Source: Pochonia chlamydosporia 170 (lineage: Eukaryota; Ascomycota; Sordariomycetes; Hypocreales; Clavicipitaceae). From it: a DNA stretch of 64,000 nucleotides. Location of the stretch: positions 930,001-994,000 of the forward strand of contig NC_035794.1 of NCBI RefSeq assembly GCF_001653235.2, read 5' to 3'. A model generated the notes under the pieces. That model was not told where the DNA came from. It saw only the letters and a program-made list of their open reading frames with translations, and made no database searches. The position numbers and the translations under genes were made by a program. Below, one piece after another: positions 40,540-59,766 of the stretch (position 1 is its first letter; each line of letters begins with the position of its first letter).

Positions 40540-41961
40540 TCACTTCCCCACAACAGTTCCATTATTGGAATTAGTATAAAACGAGATCGAATCCGTCGAA
40601 TTGTCATAAGAGTTACCGCACACCTTCGAATAACCCTGAAACATGCTTTCTCGCTGCCGCAGAAACTTTTTTAGTCCGTCCGCTGAGCAACTTTGTCCAG
40701 GACCGTCGAAACAACCCGGCAAGACCTGAGGACTCTGGTTCAGCAGAACTCGATAATATGTCGATGTAGTAGAGGAACCCGAACTGCTACTTTTGTCTTC
40801 CGTGGTTGCGTGGCCACCGTTTGAAGTACAGTTCATGCGCTCAATGGCAATGTTCGTAAGAAACGGAAGAATACGACTTGAGATCCATGCGCGATTATAA
40901 TTGATCTGGTCCAAAGGCATGGTGGCGTTGACATCATTCCCTCCAGAGAAGGCACTGTTGTTGAACAAGCCCATGGCGACGAGGACCGTCGGCGGCAACT
41001 CGCGATGCGAGAAGGAGACATACAGATCTTGGGCAGAGCTGCCAGCAGACAAGAGGTCCAGCGTCCTGTTAAGCCACGGGAAGCCAATGACGCCAGAATA
41101 CGGACTACCATATCCAGTGTTGTAGTGGTACTGAATGTCTTGGCCGTACTCGAACTGCAGCCACTCGTCTGGTGTGAAGAGTTCAGTCGAGCAGAATGGC
41201 GACGAGCCGCGGATGACTGTGTCGTACCCGCACATTGCTTGCATCGCCGTGACATCGTCAGACGTAAAGTTGAATCCTGGGGCAAGAGACTTGAGACGAG
41301 CGATGATGGGCGCAGTGTACGTCTTGATATATGTGCTTTGTTGCTTGGAACCCGCGTCAGCAGCATAGCGGCTACAACTCTTATATGGTGTCAAACTGTC
41401 GGCGCCAGCCTTCTTCCCCTCTGGAATCTCGACTACGTTGATGGTATTGTCGTCCATTTCGAGACCCCGAACGAAGCCTCTGGCACTTTGCACGGTTCGC
41501 TCCGCCGTTGAAGCCCATACCCGCTGTGGTAGTCGCAGTTTCGGATACCTGTATGAGATGGAGAGTCCGAGTTGGGCGGCTTCCACTTTACCCGTTCTCG
41601 TTAACAGTTCCTGCTCACCGAACGATGGGGCCTCCCAGTTTGCTAAGAAGGCAAGTTGCGGTATTTTGGACCAGTCGACTGTTGCGTTGCCTAACTTGTG
41701 GAGGAATGGTTCTAGATACTCCTCAAAGTCGAAGTCGTTTGCGTTGATAGCTGCGTGTCGTACGAGGTATGCTGCTCGAGTCACTGTGCAGCCCTGAGGA
41801 GGTTTGGGATCTCGAGGAGGGTCTGCGGGCTCGTAGTATGGTGCGATTCCTGCGAGATGCTCTAGGGGATTAAAAGAGTATGTTGAGTAAAGGGTCTGGA
41901 ACTGCATGGCCGTGGTTGTTGCGACGATAGCAGAGGAAACGAGAAGTTTGGCCGACTTCAT
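40540..41961 (-). CDS. Secreted histidine-phosphatase superfamily protein with altered active-site motif
   Basis: An intronless 473-residue protein with an N-terminal signal peptide (MKSAKLLVSSAIVATTTAM) and many Asn-X-Ser/Thr sites. It belongs to branch 2 of the histidine phosphatases (acid phosphatase/phytase fold). YLVRHAAINAND at residues 66-76 holds the catalytic RH pair, and VSFSHRELPPTVL holds the distal motif. Both depart from the usual RHGxRxP and HD motifs: the second Arg is missing and HD is replaced by HRE. Cysteines in paired positions suggest disulfides. It could be an extracellular phosphatase with unusual specificity or a non-catalytic relative. The conserved overall length argues against a pseudogene. 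Confidence 0.82.
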   Translation of the reverse strand: MKSAKLLVSSAIVATTTAMQFQTLYSTYSFNPLEHLAGIAPYYEPADPPRDPKPPQGCTVTRAAYLVRHAAINANDFDFEEYLEPFLHKLGNATVDWSKIPQLAFLANWEAPSFGEQELLTRTGKVEAAQLGLSISYRYPKLRLPQRVWASTAERTVQSARGFVRGLEMDDNTINVVEIPEGKKAGADSLTPYKSCSRYAADAGSKQQSTYIKTYTAPIIARLKSLAPGFNFTSDDVTAMQAMCGYDTVIRGSSPFCSTELFTPDEWLQFEYGQDIQYHYNTGYGSPYSGVIGFPWLNRTLDLLSAGSSAQDLYVSFSHRELPPTVLVAMGLFNNSAFSGGNDVNATMPLDQINYNRAWISSRILPFLTNIAIERMNCTSNGGHATTEDKSSSSGSSTTSTYYRVLLNQSPQVLPGCFDGPGQSCSADGLKKFLRQRESMFQGYSKVCGNSYDNSTDSISFYTNSNNGTVVGK

Positions 41962-42961
41962 TTTGGCGATGGGCGGTGAAAATTGTTAACTATGTCTCGT
42001 TTTGTGCTGTTTATTGTCTTTAATTTCTTGTCATTATCTGGCCATGGTTCGGTAGGAAGAATGAGGTGTCAAGGAATGGTCGACTGACAGGCCACTTGGA
42101 GAAGAAGAGACGACCGGTATAAATGTAATTCCAGAACACGACTCCTTGAAATGGTTTACTGCAGTGTAAACTGCAACACAGCTACTGGGCAGTGGATAAA
42201 AAGCAAATCCATGGATAATTGGGAGCAATTAAAAGGACATATACGTCAGACATAAACTAGTCGTCAGCAGAAAAGCTTGGAACTAATGCTAATCTTTGCT
42301 CTTGTTGGAAACGAAGCTTTAGTCCTGCATGGTACACTAGAGCTTAGCACTAAATTAGCCAATTCCACGTTGTTGTACGTCATTGACGCAGCAGTATCTC
42401 GATCGAAAGTCGATCAAGACTGGGGTAGCCAGACAAGAATGGTAAGATTAATAAATACAATAGGTCTAGCTCCATGGCCACATCTCGGGTTTCTTCCGGC
42501 CGCCCTCTCTCCTTGGGTCTCAGGAACAACACGTCCGCCACAATTCTTTAACCTCGCATGCTGTAGTATGTATGTTCTGGGTAGTGGCTCATTTGTGGTT
42601 CCTACGTGTTGTGCTAACGCATCATTCCGTCACAGTTAAAGGCGTCGCTTTGGCCGGCTAACTGCCGTGATTAATCACTACTCTTAGACCCAAGAGCGCA
42701 TCCAGGTGCGAAAAACAGTGCGATACGATGCAGTGGACTATGGCGGCATTCGTTTCCTCAATTGAATGCTCAGATTGAGAGAAACCGCCCGTTTCAAGAG
42801 GCATTCGTACCCACGGCCGGTATCTAATTACATGTCGAGCACCCTACCCAACACGTCTTGTGCATCAATCTGAAGTCTAAACTGAGAGCCTACTTCCATG
42901 CATCTTCTTACCATCTAAGCAATCATTTCAAGACTTCTTGATCGCTATTGGCATGAAATGT
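41962..42961. other. Intergenic spacer between two minus-strand genes
   Basis: This is 1.0 kb of 5'-flanking DNA of the phosphatase-like gene and 3'-flanking DNA of the hydrolase gene. A frame at 42277-42639 has no recognised motif. No repeats of note. Confidence 0.5.
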
Positions 42962-43942
42962 TCACAGTTGCCTCCAAACCTTGCCGATATAGTCAGCAAC
43001 CTCTCTCGCCCTGTCCCTTACAACACCATGTCCAACATCGGGAACAACGGCAACATTAGTGAAACCAAGGTCGTTGAGCTGCTCCTCGGTACACAAGTCA
43101 TCTAGACCCCCCAACACAACCAGAGAAGGAATCCCGGTGCCCACAGCCCTGGCGAACTCAGCGTCATTATCCATTACACTAGCATCTCTGACCACTGCCA
43201 CGACAGAAGCCACATGTCCCGGATGTTCACGCATTTGCCATTCTCGTACAGCTTCGGCGACGACCTCGCCATTTCTAACACGCTCCTGCCAATCCGAAGG
43301 GACCATTAGCTCACCACCCTCCAGGAACTCCAGCACCCATTTCCGAGCCGCAGTTTCGTCGTCACAGTCTATTCGCAGATGTTTGCGCTCTTCCTCAGTG
43401 AAATTCGCCGAGCGAATAAGACCAGCTGGTGCGACAAGGGTGAAGCTCGAAACCCGTGATGAGCGAGAGGCAGTGTATCCTGCAGTCAGGGAGCCGCCAA
43501 ACGAGAAGCCAACGAGGTGTGCTGACGGCCACTCCAAATGGTCTAGCACAGAATCTAGAAGCTGATGGAATAAGCTGGCATCGTGAGGCATGACAGGCGT
43601 GTCACTAAGCCCGTGGCCCCAAAGGTCGATGAGAACGAAATGGGCGTTGGGAAAGGATTCTTTCAGGGCACGGGCGAGCGGGAACATGCCCAGAGCTGGA
43701 GTTTGCACGCCATGGATGAAGAGTACGCGATCTGGGGCGCTGGAATTGTTCCCAGGGACAGACGGAAGAAACTCGTAGTAGGCGGCCTTGCCGTTACTCG
43801 TGCTCACGTATTTGGCGGGTGGGAGAAGCGTGCCAAAGGTTGATGTGAATGAAGCCTCGGTTGGGCCGGAGATTGGCGGGCTCGATGGGCTCGTTTTTGC
43901 ACCTGGGCGCGGGAGAACAACGTCGCTTGAGTCTAGGGGCAT
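42962..43942 (-). CDS. Alpha/beta-hydrolase fold protein
   Basis: An intronless 326-residue protein. The core fold starts near residue 70 (DRVLFIHG, oxyanion His77-Gly78). The nucleophile elbow is GFSFGGS with Ser147, the acid is Asp281 or Asp282 in VVLGGLDDLC, and the catalytic His is His305 in PDVGHGVV, so the triad is intact. IDLWGHGLSD (around 105-114) is the usual strand-4 motif. The helical cap region (about 180-245) holds EEERKHLR. The arrangement matches epoxide-hydrolase/lipase-like class IV hydrolases of broad esterase or C-C hydrolase activity; the substrate is unknown. No signal peptide is seen, suggesting a cytosolic location. Confidence 0.85.
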   Translation of the reverse strand: MPLDSSDVVLPRPGAKTSPSSPPISGPTEASFTSTFGTLLPPAKYVSTSNGKAAYYEFLPSVPGNNSSAPDRVLFIHGVQTPALGMFPLARALKESFPNAHFVLIDLWGHGLSDTPVMPHDASLFHQLLDSVLDHLEWPSAHLVGFSFGGSLTAGYTASRSSRVSSFTLVAPAGLIRSANFTEEERKHLRIDCDDETAARKWVLEFLEGGELMVPSDWQERVRNGEVVAEAVREWQMREHPGHVASVVAVVRDASVMDNDAEFARAVGTGIPSLVVLGGLDDLCTEEQLNDLGFTNVAVVPDVGHGVVRDRAREVADYIGKVWRQL

Positions 43943-46060
43943 TGCGAATAAGTCTGAATTGAGGTTTGGGCGGAGAAGAGCTACGGATTGCTGGTGCGGG
44001 TTTTATGGTGTTGTTGGTGAATAAGCAGGATGACGAGTATCTTAGTGCTGATGGTACTGGAGCAGTGTCATCATGATGACTCTTACAATGAAGGAATTTT
44101 GACGTGTGTATTCTAAAGCTATACTTCTTGACAAAAGCCTAATAATTTGGTTTCTTGCTTCTTGAAAATAACATGTACGAGGCCAAACTTGGGACACTTC
44201 GTCTTTAGTAATGCTGGAGAAAGCTGGTGATGTGGGTCGACGATGTGTGTCGGATATAGCAGCGTGGACAATATTACGGATAAATGCTAATTACCCGGGT
44301 CAATTCAATGCCCGGGGAGAATCACGACCACTCTTGACAGGTCGGGAAATAAAAAGGAGAGTTTCGAAACTTATATCGACGATACACGGTGTTATGATCT
44401 GATAAGAATGCGGCCGACCTTCCCGGCCACAAGCAAATGCAACTGCCCTATATCTTGCTTCCTAGACTTTCTGGGGGTACAGTATTTGGTCATATCTTCA
44501 TGTCATAATGTGACAGTAGCAAGAAGGGTATTTACAGGAGGGCATCAGAGCCGTGTTGATGACAATAACTGGGAACCTACCCAAACACTCTGGATTCTAC
44601 CCAATATCCAGATTCCAGATCTCATGAACACAACCGCCCGTAGTCGGATTGCAAACTCACCACCGATGCTGACGAAGTGATTGGAGCATTGATCCTTGTG
44701 TAAACTACCTCAACCATGTCCAGCACTCCCTCCCTTAGAAAACACCCACCGAAACGAGCACGACTCAGGAGCAACACCACCCTCATGCTACCAGCATCAA
44801 CTCCATAAGCACATATTTGATAACAAGACGCGACTGGTGGCCTGTAGGTACCGATCACCCATTACCGCCAACCGTTCTCGTCTGATTCCCAACATGAAAC
44901 GAATGCACGACTCCGCCTTCGGGTTTGCGTCAGCCCGCTCAATGGCTCTGCGCCACGAACATCACAAACCAACAGACTCAACACAAGCAACAACAGCACA
45001 TCAAATTTTCACGCAGTAGATTGATTTTAGTGCGGCAACGGCCCGTGTCGGTTCGTGCCCCTCTGCGCTAATCATCCCACATCCCAGATAACGCCGCCGC
45101 TTGGACCTCGCATTGTCTCGTGCTGTCTTAGCCCCTGGCTGTCAACGCCACGTTCCGTAATAGGTCGGCGGTGATGTCAAGTTCGAGCGGAATTACGCCA
45201 GGAAACATCAACTGCGCGAGTTGACAATATGTGGCTTTTCTGCCTGGCTCTGGCTGCTCATGTTGTTGGAGATCATGTCATGGCGATGCGGAGTTGTCGG
45301 ACAATTGGTAGACCGCCAATTTAGACTGGACGTGATGGTTAGATTTGCAGCATATCGTAGCCTTGGTTCGATGTAGTTGTCTATGGTGCTGATTTCGTGT
45401 TGGAGTCTGACAAGAATGTGGCATTTACCTCTAAATGGTGGCCATATTAGGTGTAATATATTCATGGGCTGGATCTGATAAGACCCAAGATGAACCCCAA
45501 CCCAGAAATCTCGGCCCTTTGCCCTCTTTGCAACTCCTGGTCATTCCGGCAGTCGGCAGTTGACTCGTCATCTTGGAGCGCATTATTTCCTCCGGTCTGC
45601 CCAAATGCTTGTCGGAATGTACGAATTGGTCGCAGCATGACGCTGCCCGCCCAATTCGAGGGAACCCCTTGTCTATCACAGGGATATTCTCGCCCTCAGC
45701 AACTGAAACGTATTCTTCAGCAGGTTCAAAGCGGCCAGACGCTAACAGCGCCGAGAAAATAAAGCGACAACATCGAGGTGTGGCTGAGAGAACGATGTTT
45801 CAATATGCTTGGTAGTACATGCATTGGAGATGCCACAGACGTCTTGTACTCTCGTAAATGTATTTACCTTTCTCTCCACGATATTGCTCCTTTACGTATT
45901 CACTACACATGCGACTACCTCGCATCGGGAAGTAGTAATCCATTACATCATGATTCTGGTTTAACAAGAGACTGGCCAAAACGACCCATTCCCATCTTCT
46001 ATATCGGAAATGACTACCAGATGCTGAGCCTCGCCAATCTTTCAACTACGCTACTCCGAA
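43943..46060. other. Intergenic region without a confident gene
   Basis: This 2.1-kb stretch separates the divergent hydrolase (-) and surface-protein (+) genes. Several frames of 80-110 codons overlap one another without motifs. An upstream small exon for the surface protein could hide near 45.9-46.05 kb. Confidence 0.45.
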
Positions 46061-47675: not shown

Positions 47676-50107
47676 TCAATCCGAACCATCAACGGTAGTA
47701 AGCTCCTCAACCAAGATAAGCTCATCAAACTTGAGTGACATAAGCCGCATCTGCGCCTCCGACGGCGACGCCAATGACACAAGCCAGTCAAACACAAAAC
47801 TGGTCGTAGGATCCTCCGCAGCAGCATGATGAAGACCAGACTTTTCAAACTCATCCATCAGGGCTCTAGCCTCGGATTTCGCAAACGCCCTTTTCTGCAT
47901 TGCCAGTGACAGGATCCCCTTTGCGATGTCGTGAAAGACCGGGAAGCAAACATACAGACTTTTCCAGCAGTAAAAGGCGATTAAAAAGTAGGGCTTCCAC
48001 TGCGGATCGGGGATATCTACTAGCAGGGCGGTGCAGAGGGTGAGCAAGCCTGGGTTGAGGAGGGCGCAGCGAAACGTGGTGAGGTTGTACGTGTAGCATT
48101 GGAGAACAAGCTGTTTTATTTGGTTGATGGACGCGGCGTAAATGGCTCTTGGGTGGCTGTCGTACGAAGTGAAGGATCGTAGACGATGTGTTCGTGGGCT
48201 GTTAATAAAGGGATGTAGAGTGAGGGCAACAGTGTAATGTAGCATCAAGCTGTAAACCTGTCAGCAAAGGTTTGAGCGTCAAAGGTTGTTTAATGTAGAT
48301 ATGTTGACTGACTGGAATATAGTCATGTTTAGGGGACTGCACGCATCCAAGGCGGCGTCATGTTTGATGGTGTTCGCCCAAGCGAATAGCTTGCGACACT
48401 TGGCCTCTGCGAATGCCATGGGAACGCGCTCACGAACAGGAATGTCGCTGTCCATGCGGTAGACAGCGGCTACTTCCTGAACGATTGTCCATAACTTGCA
48501 CGACGAGGGGAATTCCCGTCCCACAAAGCGACACAAAGGAAGTGGCAGCGCTTTCAGAGTGTTGTTATCAGATACTCTGGTGTCTCCGGGGACTGGTAGA
48601 CTTGGTGGAAAATGGATCGGCTGCTGCTCCAAGAAGAAGACGATGGTTCTGTGATTTGGAGACTATCTTAGCTTACATGTAGAACAGTACAGCTCGGATT
48701 ACTCACGTTAACCAGTTGTATGCTCCCCAGGCAGTGTATGAAGCTGATCTTACGCGATCTGGTGCCATATCGTGGAGAGATTGCGCAAGAGGGTGCTCAA
48801 AAGGGACTCCAAAGAGACCTAGTCGTTCGGCCATGCACCGTCCTGCTAAGGACGCCTCCCTGCCTAGAGAGTCGTTTCCGTGAAGCATGCACGCGAAGCT
48901 GAATATTTCGATTGCCGCCACCGTTGTGACCGAGTCGTCGGCCATTTCGCCGTGCTGTAGCATCTCTGCCTCTTGGAAGAAGGCGGTCGTGAGGTATGCC
49001 GATTTAGGATCTACAGCTGTGTACCCTTGCTTTACGAATTTATTAGGAATTACTAGGATCGTAGGTAGACGAGGATCGTTACTTACACTCGACAAGTACA
49101 ATATGGAGCAAACTAAAAAGGCGGAGCAAAACTGGAGGCCATGGCCGACGAGGTCTTCCAGAAATAAATCGCTGTCAAAAATACCAAAAATAGAGTGGTC
49201 GGTCGTGAGATAATAGGAAATAAGTCTCGCGGCAACCTCATTTGATACGGGTACTTTGATCCAGTAGCTGATGTCTAACTGACGCAATATGCTGTCGCAA
49301 TATAGAGGAGGTATTGATGGCCCTATTGGGGATGAAAGTTGATGAAACGCTTCGCAATGGTTCCTGGATACCGGCTCATCACTATGGCTGCCATCCAACA
49401 CGAATGATTCTTTTCCTTGGTTGCTTTGAGTTTTTGGCATGGAAGCCCTGGATTTTCGACCCGGGCTGTTGAACACGCCATCACCACTCTCCAGATCGAC
49501 AACAGGGAGCTTCGGATACGCCGTCTGATACTGTGCCATTAGCTCAAACTCGACCTCCGACTGCGTAGATGGCGACATTGCGCGGGCGGTCTTGTGTTCA
49601 GAGAGACAGTTCCGCAAGAACACGCCTCCATTAGCCCTGGAGAGCAGGTAAGAAACATCTGGGACGAGGCGTAGTTGGGCGAGTACTCCCATGGCCTCAT
49701 GGTCCGGTAGAAATCGGAGATAGTCCAAGAAATCTTGGTGATTCTTCAACTGATGCTGGAGCGCTCCAAGTTGCTCCGTGGTTCCAGCATTGCTGCCTCT
49801 TTGCCCTTGTCGGTAAACGCAATCCAGCTGTCGTCGACGACATGTCGTGCAACGCGGCCGCTTTCCATCACACTTCAATGTTGGCTAATCAGCAGACTTT
49901 CCTCTAATTAAAGGCCGAAGCGCACGCAAAGTTCTTTTATCTTACACTCTTTTTCTGAAGCCTACAATTATTACATGCAATGTGTGCGGGCCGACGTCGC
50001 TGCTTGCGGGGCTGAAAATCCTCGTCTTCTTGTTCAAGCTTGTCCACCGCTTCACTAGGTCGGGACGATGCAGGGAGGATAGGACGCTCTCTCTTCCTCG
50101 CCTCCAT
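47676..50107 (-). CDS. Zn2Cys6 transcription factor with fungal-specific TF domain
   Basis: Exons 49946-50107, 48707-49872, 48313-48648 and 47676-48249 encode 745 residues. The binuclear zinc cluster is complete only after splicing the 73-nt first intron: ACNNCRLQKKS from exon 1 joins CDGKRPRCTTCRRRQLDC of exon 2. This gives the exact Cys spacing 2-6-6-2-6. A basic run (RKQRRR) precedes it. QGQRGSNAGTTEQLGALQHQ follows as linker and short dimerisation helix. The middle-homology (fungal_trans) domain spans about 250-560, with the typical WGAYNWLT followed across the second intron by TIVFFLEQQP. Such proteins activate nearby or dispersed pathway genes. Targets are unknown; the RiPP pair 7 kb away is one possibility. 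Confidence 0.9.
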
Positions 50108-55370: not shown

Positions 55371-56543
55371 TTAGGCATTGGGTTTGGCAATATGAGGTAC
55401 TCTACACTTCAGCAAGCTCACAACCCTTTGATCAGCGACGACCTCACGTATCGTTGCGCGTTGGTTTGGATCCGTATTCACCATGCGTCTGACTAACGAC
55501 CGCCATGTTTCTGGAATATCCTTGAATGTGTCATCCATAGGCTGCTTAAGGAAGCCACTGAAGTTTACGTCCTCTGGCACGGCTTCCTCCCAAGGCATGT
55601 GTGCGGTCAACAATCCAAAGAGCATTATACCCAAAGCCCACACATCTGCTGCCATAGGGCTATAAGGCTTTCCATCAAGTATTTCCGGAGCAAGATATGC
55701 CGGATTGCCCTTGATCTCTACTTAATTGTTAGCTAGCAATGTGCCGTATGGGGAGGAAGGACAAGTACAAGTAAAAAGCTTACCTAGACTCAGAGAAGAA
55801 GCATTCACTTGAAGGGCGCTGCCAAAGTCAAGCAACTTAACCAATCCAGTCTCTTCTCGTAGAATGACATTGGCGAGAGACAAATCCCTATGTGCGATGC
55901 CCTTCCCATGTAGGTAGCTCACCGCGCTTACGACTTGTGCAAACGCGCAGTCAACTTCATTGCCGCCACGTAATCTGCCCTCTGCGATCATGGCCTGAAC
56001 GTCCTTTGGACCAGCGTGTTCCATGAGCTGTGTCCATAAACCCGTTCGTTGGTCTGCTTTGTAGCGGATAAGCACAAGCGGTTGAATGATATTAGGGTGA
56101 TGTAAATTTTGCAAAAAGTCAAATTCTTTGTAGATTGAATTCTCATAGTCGTTTTCGCTCTCGTTCATGTATCTTGGTTTGAAGACTTTCACAGCGGCAA
56201 ATTCTTCGACCTCGTTGGCTGGCTTTCTCTGAGCGAGCATGATGCTACCGAAAGAGCCATCTGCAAGCATTTGAAGGTAACGAAAGCCTTTGAAGGGAAT
56301 ACCAGCTCTGCAATATGGCCATGATACCCCTAAATTTGGGTCGTTCCTGACAAGGCAGGAAAACCCTTGAGGACAGATGGCCGGCCCTGTGACAGCTAAC
56401 CATGAGGCTTCCGCTGAGTCAAGACAAACCCACAAAAGGGCAATCAACAGATAGCTCACTGTTGACATTGGCAATGTTGGTATCGAGTAACAGATGTGCC
56501 CGCTGCTGTCACAAGGGAAACCCGAAAAGAATGTGCCGATCAA
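55371..56543 (-). CDS. Protein kinase with hydrophobic N-terminal segment
   Basis: Exons 55784-56543 and 55371-55720 (63-nt intron) encode about 369 residues. All key kinase elements are present: LADGSFGSIMLAQ (glycine loop), FAAVKVF (catalytic Lys), IAHRDLSLANVIL (HRD-x4-N), LLDFGSAL (DFG), GNPAYLAPEIL (APE) and DVWALGIMLFG. It closes with NQRATIREVV (subdomain XI). It should be active on Ser/Thr. The N-terminal 95 residues are unusual: MSTVSYLLIALLWVCLDSAE could be a signal peptide or membrane anchor, followed by a Cys-containing stretch. A GTGAGC-to-CACAG candidate intron overlaps that hydrophobic part but would need another upstream exon in a different frame, so the N-terminus is uncertain. 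The family is unassigned (broad CAMK/AGC-like). It lies 606 nt downstream of the RiPP precursor on the same strand. Confidence 0.75.
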
Positions 56544-57148
56544 CAGGGGCGAGGTAGCTGAGGTGTCAATGGGCTATGTTGACGGGTATGCCTTGAAGTG
56601 GCCAGGGTGCCCGTAATGTTTCTAGAGGGGATCGCTCCGAACGGTCGTTGGACGGAGGAGAAAATGTAAGATGACGACCAGAGAGTAGCGCAGAGTATCT
56701 AGTGTGTCTCAGGTAGTTCTTTAACACTGTCTTTCGTTGGAGCAGAAGGGCTGCGCTTATGCGCCAACTGAAATCTCACTAGCTGAAGAAAGGTCGGTCA
56801 ACAGGCCGCGTGACTTCCTTCCGTATTTGCAATAGTGAAGACAAGGGGGTTATTTAATAGTTACGACATAAGCTGACTGCATACAGCAGATCTGACAAGG
56901 GCCGTCCCGATTGACGGCAGACGCACCAACCCTGACCGGCCACCATTCTTGAGGCTGAACGGGTCATACTACAAACGGATGGAGCGGCACAATATAGTGA
57001 ATACTTATCGAGTTAGAGAGTAACTGACTGTTGTCTATTTGTCTAGAAGAAGGATGAGCTAATCTACGTGCTACGGGTAGCAGTTTACGCCATCGTCTTG
57101 CAACAGCCACGCAGCTATGCGCTCTACAGTTATCTTCTCCGTTAGATC
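56544..57148. other. Spacer between kinase and RiPP precursor genes
   Basis: About 600 bp containing the 3' flank of the precursor gene and the probable promoter of the kinase gene. No open frame of note and no recognised motif. Confidence 0.5.
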
Positions 57149-57935
57149 TTAGGTCTCAATGACAGCCGCCTCGCGTTTCTATCTTGTTAGTCATGAAGTA
57201 AGCCCACCAGTGTAGATTCACGTACCACAGTGTATCGGCGTCCTTGGCCGATGGCAAGGTTTTCCACCGCGGGGGCTGCCTCGCGTTTCTATATTGTTAG
57301 TCTTGAAGTAGACCCAACAGTGTTATTGACGTACCACGGTGTATCGACGTCCTTGACCGATAGCAAGATTTTCGACCTTAGGAGCTGCTTCTCGTTTCTT
57401 TTGCAAAATGTTAACCAAGAGTCCTCAAGTTCCTAGATGATTTCACATACGACAGTGTATCGACGTCCTTGACCTATGGCAAGGTTTGCCGACTCAGGAG
57501 CTGCCTCGCGCTTCTTTTAGAGGATATTAATCAAGAGCTCTCAAGTTCCTAGATAATTTTATAGATTCACATACCACAGTGTATCGACGTCCCTGACCGA
57601 TAGCAAGGCTTTCCACTTTAGGGGTAGCCTCGCGTTTCTATTGGAACCAGTATGTTAATCTGGCGTTCCTGAATAATATTGTACATTTACTTACAACAGT
57701 GTATCGACGCCCTTGGCCGATGGCAAGATTGTCCACCTTAGCGTCACGTTTCTTTTGGAGAGTATTAATCAAGGGCTCTCGAGTTCCTAGATATTTTTGT
57801 AGATTTACATACGACAGTGTATCGACGTCCTGTGCCGATGGCAAGGCTGTCCACCTTGGGAGCCTCAGCAGCAGGAAGAGCATTGCCAAGCATAGCCAGA
57901 GAAAGAGCCGCCGAGAGAACCGAAGTAGGCTTCAT
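57149..57935 (-). CDS. Repeat-type RiPP precursor (UstA/dikaritin-like), one repeat per exon
   Basis: Seven exons: 57813-57935, 57695-57751, 57575-57637, 57451-57513, 57335-57397, 57226-57288 and 57149-57178; 153 residues. A 20-residue signal peptide (MKPTSVLSAALSLAMLG...) is followed by six copies of a unit whose invariant part is LAIG-x-GRR-YTV. Each ends exactly at an intron, and the next exon opens with Lys-Arg followed by Asp-Ala or Glu-Ala. Lys-Arg is the kexin site and the following dipeptides suit Ste13-type trimming. One Tyr per repeat is available for UstYa-type oxidation. Exons 3-6 are 63 nt, exon 2 is 57 nt, and all are phase 0. Introns are 61, 57, 61, 53, 46 and 47 nt with GTAYGT or GTAAGT donors (one GTACGTC). 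The final exon adds KREA and a short tail. The product is a secreted, cleaved peptide set; its structure and activity are unknown. Confidence 0.88.
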
Positions 57936-58704
57936 CTTGATTGATCTATCGAGATTAATATATCGAAACTAGAAAGTTGCTGTTGATTTGTCGAAACGTG
58001 AGTCTGATGAATGCGATGAAAGAAGAGCATGTTTTGGAAAGAAAATATACTCTATGGCCCCGTTGCATGCATTTATACTCATGAGATTACGATGATATAA
58101 TGTTTGCTAGTTCTATACAACAGTGACTTACATGACTTCAAAGAAAAATGCCACGGGAATTTCCTAATTTGAAATTGACTGAAACCGGGAATGTCCTACT
58201 TTGGAATGTACCGAATCCCCTGAATTCAGATCATCCTCGACTGGCTAACTGGAAAAGGAGGTAACCGAACTAAAAGACAAAGAGCTCGGCATAACTAGGC
58301 CAGCCACATCTGCAAGATGGTTGGGGGCGGTTTGTATTGCAAGCTTCCTTCTATTCACAACAATGGCCTACGTACACCTGGTCTGCTCGGGCCGCTCGAG
58401 ACTTGTCTTCTTTGTGGTCCGATTGACAACAGTCAAGTTCCTACTCCAGTCATTCTTTTTTTTTTAACAATAGCAGGATCAAGTAAAGAGCTCGTTCAAG
58501 ACTACGACGTAAAGCTTCTTGTTAACCGGAGTTATCAAGCCAGTGAGCTTTCAGTGGACACGGGTGCAGTATTGGAGGACACAATTTCCTACCTCTCTGG
58601 ACACAGAAACAAAGTGATACTCGGAGCTATCTAGTATCACTAATAAGCCGAGGAGATCGTGCTTTGATCGAGATTGACCCAAGGGTTCAGGGCTTTCAGA
58701 CAGC
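57936..58704. promoter_or_regulatory. Bidirectional promoter region of the RiPP precursor / UstYa pair
   Basis: A 769-bp head-to-head spacer between the precursor (-) and the oxidase (+). A TATAAA box on the minus strand (58072-58077) lies 137 nt upstream of the precursor ATG. The frame at 58317-58634 has no recognised motif and is not called. Shared control of both genes is likely from the arrangement; no operator was identified. Confidence 0.5.
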
Positions 58705-59766
58705 ATGGATGATGAAAATTTCGACGCCTGTCATGAGGAACAGGCCGAGCATTTGCTACCCGAGGCCGAAAAGCGTCGTCGCACAAGCAAATTTTCCAAA
58801 TCCTACTGGGGTTTACAGATTATCTTTTCCTTCTCACTCGCACTTTTCATGCTCTTGATCATGAACCAAATACAACAGAAATCTTCCTGTGACAGACAAG
58901 AGAGCCTGTACTGCAAGTAACAGTCTTTCCATTTACCCAAAGAACAATGTTAAGTTAACATAGAATTAGCAATAACAAACCTGGATATGAAGTACGAAAC
59001 TGTTCGATTTGGAAGGAAGTACGATCGATGGATGGGCGACCCCCGACCTGAACTGGAGGAGGCTTGGGACAGTGTCATTGAACATGGTACGTACCGAGTA
59101 AACATGCAAATCAAATATGACAGACAGCCTAACCGTGAAGAAGTTCGCGATATTCCTGTCAGTGAGGCCACTATTAAGGGCTTTGGCATTCCAGTGCCTA
59201 TCGAATCCATGGCCAGATTTCCCACAGACCAAGGAGGGGATGTGTTTGGTGAAGTTGAGTTCAAGCACCAACTTCATTGTCTGGTGCGTTAATACGAATT
59301 CAACAAGAAGGACCGGTGTGTTTATTTACCGCACAGAGAGAAGCTAACTACCTTGAGAACACAGAGATCCCTTCGCGAGTCGAATTTCCTATACTATACA
59401 CATTACAAGGACGTGGAACAAAGGCAAATGTTGAACGTTGAGGATGTTTACGTCAAGCAGCACATTGATCACTGCATAAATTACTTGCGGCAGATTCTCA
59501 TATGCAACGCAGATACTGGTTTGGTTTTTACCTATTGGATGGACAATCATGACGAGCCAAAGCCCGACTTCAACAGCCTTCGAGTTTGTCGAGACTTCAC
59601 CCAAGCGCGTGACTGGGTACAAGAGAATGGCAAATCGCTCTCAGGTTCACTGACTATGTTGCCGGGGCAAGCTAATCTAACGAGGTACCCTCAGGAGTTT
59701 GATAGGGACTATGATAGAGAGGTGCTTCATTTAAAACAAAGCCAGTGGTACAATATAGAACCTTGA
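58705..59766 (+). CDS. UstYa-family (DUF3328) peptide-cyclising oxidase
   Basis: Likely exons 58705-58888, 58970-59283 and 59365-59766; about 299 residues. A basic cytoplasmic stretch (EKRRRTSKFSKS) precedes one membrane anchor near residues 33-54. The lumenal domain carries the family hallmarks: MGDPRPELEEAWDSV, the first HxxHC in FKHQLHCL, and the second in VKQHIDHCINYLRQ. UstYa proteins are thought to be metal-dependent oxidases that form the ether or C-C links of dikaritin RiPPs in the secretory pathway. The second intron (81 nt, GTGCGT donor, ACACAG acceptor) joins HQLHCL to RSLRES cleanly. The first junction is uncertain: the only frame-compatible donor keeping YETVRF is a weak GTGACA at 58889. 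An alternative, 58917-59015, would delete that motif. The divergent precursor neighbour supports the function. Confidence 0.85.

Follow-up and report, generated by a model that had tools for sequence, protein, structure and literature searches.

A putative secreted repeat-peptide precursor gene with one repeat unit per exon beside a UstYa gene in Pochonia chlamydosporia

Six short repeats ending in Tyr-Thr-Val follow one another in the genome of Pochonia chlamydosporia 170, and the question that they raise is whether they are exons of a single gene and, if so, what kind of peptide that gene would make. The repeats lie in a window of 64,000 nucleotides (C5:930001-994000; the genome comprises 44.2 Mb in 49 contigs), and positions given below are those of the window unless a contig is named. 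We confirm that a repeat gene with one unit per exon is present at 57149-57935 and is more than a chance arrangement, its splicing being predicted from the sequence. Starting from what was observed directly, namely the anatomy of the sequence, its coding constraint, the UstYa neighbour and the kexin genes elsewhere in the genome, we consider it quite probable that the gene is an intact, Kex2-processed repeat precursor of the dikaritin or epichloecyclin kind, with predicted splicing, secretion, cleavage, trimming, cyclisation and a putative exact core.

On the minus strand the gene model runs from an ATG at 57935 to a stop codon ending at 57149, exactly the span given in the preliminary description, and comprises seven exons of 123, 57, 63, 63, 63, 63 and 30 nt encoding 153 amino acids. 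Exon 1 (57813..57935) carries a predicted signal peptide (MKPTSVLSAALSLAMLGNALPA...) together with unit 1, which ends in IGTGRRYTV. One unit each, 19 or 21 amino acids long, is held by exon 2 (KRDAKVDNLAIGQGRRYTV, 57695..57751), exon 3 (KREATPKVESLAIGQGRRYTV, 57575..57637), exon 4 (KREAAPESANLAIGQGRRYTV, 57451..57513), exon 5 (KREAAPKVENLAIGQGRRYTV, 57335..57397) and exon 6 (KREAAPAVENLAIGQGRRYTV, 57226..57288), and exon 7 (57149..57178) reads KREAAVIET and a stop. The earlier statement that every YTV repeat is its own exon is therefore correct for units 2 to 6, but not for unit 1, which shares its exon with the signal peptide, nor for exon 7, which is a tail. All six units end in GRRYTV, with Arg-Arg immediately before YTV in every one. 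The signal peptide is predicted from hydropathy alone: the most hydrophobic 12-residue stretch starts at residue 6 (mean Kyte-Doolittle value 2.06), and the maximum for stretches starting past residue 25 is 0.6. A possible TATA box (TATAAAT, 58071..58077, minus strand) stands about 140 nt before the ATG.

The six introns are 61, 57, 61, 53, 46 and 47 nt long (57752..57812, 57638..57694, 57514..57574, 57398..57450, 57289..57334 and 57179..57225). As originally described, the gene model places all of them in phase 0 at the identical position, between Val and Lys-Arg. From the first to the sixth they read GTATGT...AAAAG, GTAAGT...AATAG, GTATGT...AAAAG, GTATGT...AAAAG, GTACGT...CTAAC...TATAG and GTACGT...CTAAC...GATAG. 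Each has an in-frame stop, which in intron 2 is the TAG of its own acceptor, so the long product requires splicing; without it the frame would end after the cores read up to that intron. AAG is a less usual acceptor in fungi, and its presence at three of the six introns (the other three have TAG) counts against a gene of the dikaritin or epichloecyclin type. These acceptors, together with the termination of the frame by any unspliced intron, would suit a gene that is real but in decay or poorly spliced, in which inefficient AAG sites lead mostly to truncated products with one or a few cores. We regard such decay as very improbable, given that the frame is unbroken, that all six donors fit, that the peptide is constrained as synonymous sites drift and that AAG also ends one of the four introns of a second precursor described below.

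Tandem repeats spaced 109-124 nt apart make up the region, and a 115-aa open frame lies on the plus strand at 57597-57941, both of which would be explained by a non-coding repeat or a plus-strand gene that mimics exons. The codon positions speak against this. In a manual alignment of the six units (unit 1 is short of its first four codons and unit 2 of two), the variable columns at codon positions 1, 2 and 3 number 4, 5 and 18 of 21 each, that is, 18/21 third positions versus 9/42 for the first and second together (Fisher p = 1.5e-6, columns taken as independent). Inside the block LAIGxGRRYTV they number 1, 1 and 8 of 11. Over the ungapped 45-nt part of the alignment, the proposed frame has 63 synonymous versus 38 nonsynonymous pairwise codon differences and zero stops, and the runner-up, a plus-strand frame, has 44 versus 38 and three stops, one in each of three of the six units; the remaining four of the six possible frames have 5-15 synonymous versus 69-94 nonsynonymous differences. 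The minus-strand splice sites, signal peptide and stop all agree with the proposed frame. Plus-strand coding and a non-coding repeat are ruled out by the frame comparison, and we give them virtually no chance.

We also searched the 44.2 Mb for an intron followed by Lys-Arg and an acidic residue, using the pattern GTANGT-N32..62-AGAARCGNGA. It has 25 matches genome-wide (35 for the reversed pattern), six of which are the precursor introns, spanning about 640 bases; the other 19 are scattered, with no pair less than 100 kb apart. The introns diverge by up to 59% pairwise while the peptide block is near-invariant, which suggests that selection has probably long maintained the peptide. Pfam searches with the precursor gave seven matches up to E 0.1, all under their own cut-offs and unrelated in kind, and Rfam at gathering scores gave no match between 54000 and 64000. 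A search of the same genome with the precursor repeat had one other match, at C9:605690-605932 (E 0.013). It sits inside a long frame that we call beta-glucosidase-like from reading its translation, and was rejected as a paralogue and taken as a chance match.

A UstYa gene (58705..59766, plus strand, 307 aa) lies 0.77 kb from the precursor in divergent orientation. Its protein, taken from a gene model made by hand, matches Pfam PF11807 over the full length (E 5.1e-41, profile positions 3-220 of 220) and has both HxxHC motifs, HQLHC and HIDHC; in the whole-genome search with PF11807 this is the single UstYa match at the locus. Together with the hydropathy of the precursor, it bears out the initial description of a secreted repeat precursor with a UstYa neighbour. 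No solved structure was similar in sequence to the UstYa protein up to E 1. Two introns were modelled, 58913-58969 (GC-AG) and 59284-59364. The first reads GCAAGT...TTAG, and a weak upstream GT donor (GTGACA) would join in frame too. A third intron, 59087-59127, was dropped because it breaks the frame.

To which class would such a gene belong? DUF3328/UstYa is quoted as the class-defining dikaritin enzyme in PMC12048977, where an older five-gene definition of the dikaritins is also quoted, along with later work that dropped parts of the set. The locus shares with the dikaritins ustiloxin, phomopsin and asperipin-2a a predicted signal peptide, repeated cores parted by Kex2 sites, a core Tyr and a UstYa gene beside the multicore precursor, and its single UstYa gene is as reported for asperipin-2a (PMC7329392). 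The older definition is matched in part only. Ustiloxins and phomopsins need a tyrosinase (PMC7329392), and the tyrosinase family PF00264 has no match on contig C5; its five exon-wise matches in the genome are on C1, C3 and C20. The proposal of a dikaritin-class precursor is thus upheld as regards UstYa, the signal peptide and the Kex2 repeats, but the five-gene set is incomplete. Secretion as judged by hydropathy, repeats and KR or RR sites are also the features of KEX2-processed repeat proteins (KEPs), and the precursor has all of them.

Kexin candidates, taken as S8 and P-domain matches close together, are found on C6, C12 and C15. None is beside the precursor: the listed S8 matches on C5 lie far from 987 kb, and P-domain matches occur only on C6, C12 and C15. 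The absence of a tyrosinase from the contig and of a kexin gene beside the precursor and the single UstYa match count against the dikaritin or epichloecyclin reading. The three kexin-like loci are at C6:2569639, C12:363678 and C15:14833. Over 3372 nt the copies on C12 and C15 match at 99.97% identity, and both share about 93% identity with the one on C6; the C12-C15 pair is either a recent duplication or an assembly duplicate.

The processing signals favour, in part, a different kind of product. Kexin sites and Glu-Ala trimming motifs are present as first proposed, in the form KREA, except that exon 2 has KRDA. KREA or KRDA followed by XA and XP dipeptides is the described signature of processing by KEX2, KEX1 and STE13 (PMC6339444), and the authors of that survey describe the STE13 signature as restricted in general, within Ascomycota, to alpha pheromones that carry no modification, a point in favour of a linear product. 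The gene would then be a spliced precursor of the pheromone or signal-peptide type, whose linear peptides are released by KEX2, KEX1 and STE13 and whose UstYa neighbour is incidental; the lack of a tyrosinase match on the contig fits this as well. Nevertheless, we find it unlikely. The precursor shares its KREA/KRDA and XA/XP motifs with KEPs and ascomycete alpha-pheromone precursors but holds no pheromone-like peptide: its 153 amino acids include no Trp, Cys or PYG, so neither of the pheromone motifs described in PMC6339444 (Cys with PCW; PYGXPXG) is present. The UstYa gene is adjacent and divergent, and in a survey of 7878 repeat proteins a DUF3328 neighbour is reported for 0/227 members of the yeast alpha-factor group and 3/216 of the fungal-pheromone group (PMC7329392).

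For a precursor of the dikaritin or epichloecyclin kind, the sequence suggests two candidate cores. Five units contain IGQGRRYTV and unit 1 contains IGTGRRYTV, with Ile at position 1 and Tyr at position 7, ending at Lys-Arg. Epichloecyclins are nonapeptides with an N-terminal Ile and an internal Tyr (PMC9233826) and have a seven-residue ring closed on Tyr (PMC6514808), which places their Ile at position 1 and their Tyr at position 7; IGQGRRYTV fits this geometry by position. The GigA precursor of Epichloe is likewise secreted, with imperfect repeats, kexin processing and one DUF3328 gene in a small cluster (PMC7317419). However, its repeat is 27 aa long versus 19-21 aa here, its cluster includes the kexin gene kexB and a fourth gene (PMC7317419), neither of which was found beside our precursor, and it differs from our precursor in the inner Arg-Arg. 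The nonapeptide stands 8 or 10 residues after KR, and no cleavage signal stands before its Ile, which counts against it as the core; the inner Arg-Arg is another kexin site, where a cut would split the nonapeptide. The conserved block is LAIGxGRRYTV as a whole, with variable residues upstream, which favours a longer core.

The alternative core is the tripeptide itself. The ustiloxin and phomopsin cores YAIG, YVIG and YVIP carry a crosslink from Tyr1 to Ile3 (PMC7329392). Tyr-Thr-Val has the same spacing of Tyr1 and a branched residue at position 3, but this residue is Val rather than Ile and nothing follows it; the one-unit-per-exon plan and the contig without a tyrosinase are further differences from the dikaritins. 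Kex2 cuts on both sides of Tyr-Thr-Val would yield a bare tripeptide that UstYa closes from Tyr1 to Val3, a step that we think improbable, since both the conserved block and the geometry of the epichloecyclins point to the longer core. As judged from the sequence, an epichloecyclin-geometry core appears to be an equally good or better label than a ustiloxin-type dikaritin.

The preferred reading, an intact Kex2-processed precursor, would then work as follows. The symmetrical phase-0 exons of units 2 to 6, one apiece, and exon 1 with unit 1 and the signal peptide would be spliced into the 153-aa precursor, which would enter the secretory pathway. Kexin would cleave behind each Lys-Arg, a dipeptidyl peptidase of the STE13 type would then remove the XA and XP dipeptides, and the adjoining UstYa oxidase would probably crosslink each unit's Tyr. 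A peptide with IGQGRRYTV at its end (a nonapeptide with Ile1 and Tyr7) is a more likely product than bare YTV, for which kexin would also have to cut at the inner Arg-Arg. Tandem duplication of exon-plus-intron units is the most likely way in which the gene grew, and the relatedness of introns 1 and 3 (87% pairwise identity) and of introns 5 and 6 (85%) fits this, the lowest pair being 41% identical. With lengths of 57 or 63 nt, all multiples of three, and phase 0 on both sides, the internal exons would allow units to be gained, lost or skipped in frame.

Is this arrangement peculiar to one gene? PF11807 has 48 exon-wise matches in the genome, which we grouped by eye into 27 places. Ten of the 27, including the window's own place, were scanned to about 10 kb on either side for peptide words repeated in any frame, which gave the window gene and five others; two of these six precursors or candidates have one unit per exon. 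The second such gene (C5:4003013-4003630, plus strand) is modelled as five exons encoding 132 aa, with four WVNYITYD units, one per exon, and introns of 49, 58, 52 and 60 nt, all in phase 1. In its core block, 7/10 third positions are variable versus 1/10 and 2/10 for the other two, and UstYa matches adjoin it at C5:4004733-4009153, the nearest about 1.1 kb off. The two genes are alike in having one unit per exon, spacers that contain Ala-Pro, an intron at the very end of the block that contains Tyr and Arg-Arg before that block (in two of the four units of the second gene). They differ in that the second has the core WVNYITYD, introns in phase 1 rather than 0, four units and no Lys-Arg starting each unit. 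They may share common descent with a shifted intron, or they may have originated separately.

The four other candidates near UstYa genes have their repeats in one frame, with no introns between them. They comprise six full copies of SEAQSPDILYNNQAGWGKR in one open frame beside UstYa matches (C2, about 6.111 Mb, minus strand), a KYEPL repeat with 15-aa units that have no dibasic site (C6, about 1.083 Mb, plus strand), a Lys-rich RHHQGAK... repeat with KR sites (C2, about 1.191 Mb, plus strand) and a GLGHK...NSI repeat near C7:260966 (about 0.261 Mb, plus strand), whose leader was left unassigned. Two of the four are not clear Kex2 precursors.

According to the gene models, the window gene and the second precursor, with their different cores, represent a recurrence of the one-unit-per-exon plan within one genome. 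A far-reaching view of this recurrence, which we offer as speculation and rate as rather unlikely, is that these RiPP precursors evolve, and are dosed, exon by exon: symmetrical exons with one core each, having arisen more than once in the genome with different intron phases, would let cores be added, lost or skipped in frame, and splicing would set the number and choice of cores. Its boldest form includes the Kex2 cuts on both sides of Tyr-Thr-Val.

The kind of gene is known, as the larger survey counts 1758 repeat proteins with a DUF3328 neighbour among its 7878 (PMC7329392). Nor is it new in itself that such genes contain introns, since work on mushrooms obtained 'intron-less KEP gene sequences' by amplification from cDNA (PMC9769878). 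The unusual part is the one-unit-per-exon plan, and this may already be known in gigA, the closest relative in design. By word search, neither 'intron' nor 'exon' occurs in the main text of either large survey (PMC7329392, PMC6339444) or of PMC12048977, PMC7099791, PMC10512285, PMC6514808 and PMC7317419; in PMC9632046, PMC9233826 and PMC3532157 the words were found in other contexts only. The preliminary description held that such genes are easily missed, which is right in principle: internal coding exons of 57-63 nt can lead gene callers to miss or shorten them, and the larger survey began from annotated protein sequences and required repeats within one protein (PMC7329392). If the plan is general, the known precursors are undercounted, and a repeat precursor may exist in some UstYa clusters reported to be free of one. 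It would also be a simple route to alter the number of cores, and possibly their choice, through splicing.

Pfam searches of 18 open frames, selected within about 17 kb and taken unspliced, gave no clear methyltransferase, transporter or peptidase gene. The frames match a protein kinase (55725-56573), a Zn2Cys6 regulator (48703-49881), an alpha/beta-hydrolase that also matches serine aminopeptidase S33 (42962-43999, E 2.4e-8) and a histidine phosphatase (40540-41982), and none of the selected neighbours clearly belongs to the pathway of the precursor. Outside the window, Pfam matches mark acyl-CoA dehydrogenase frames and, just past its end, an open frame that matches the alkylmercury lyase MerB (C5:994841-995242, PF03243, E 3.9e-22).
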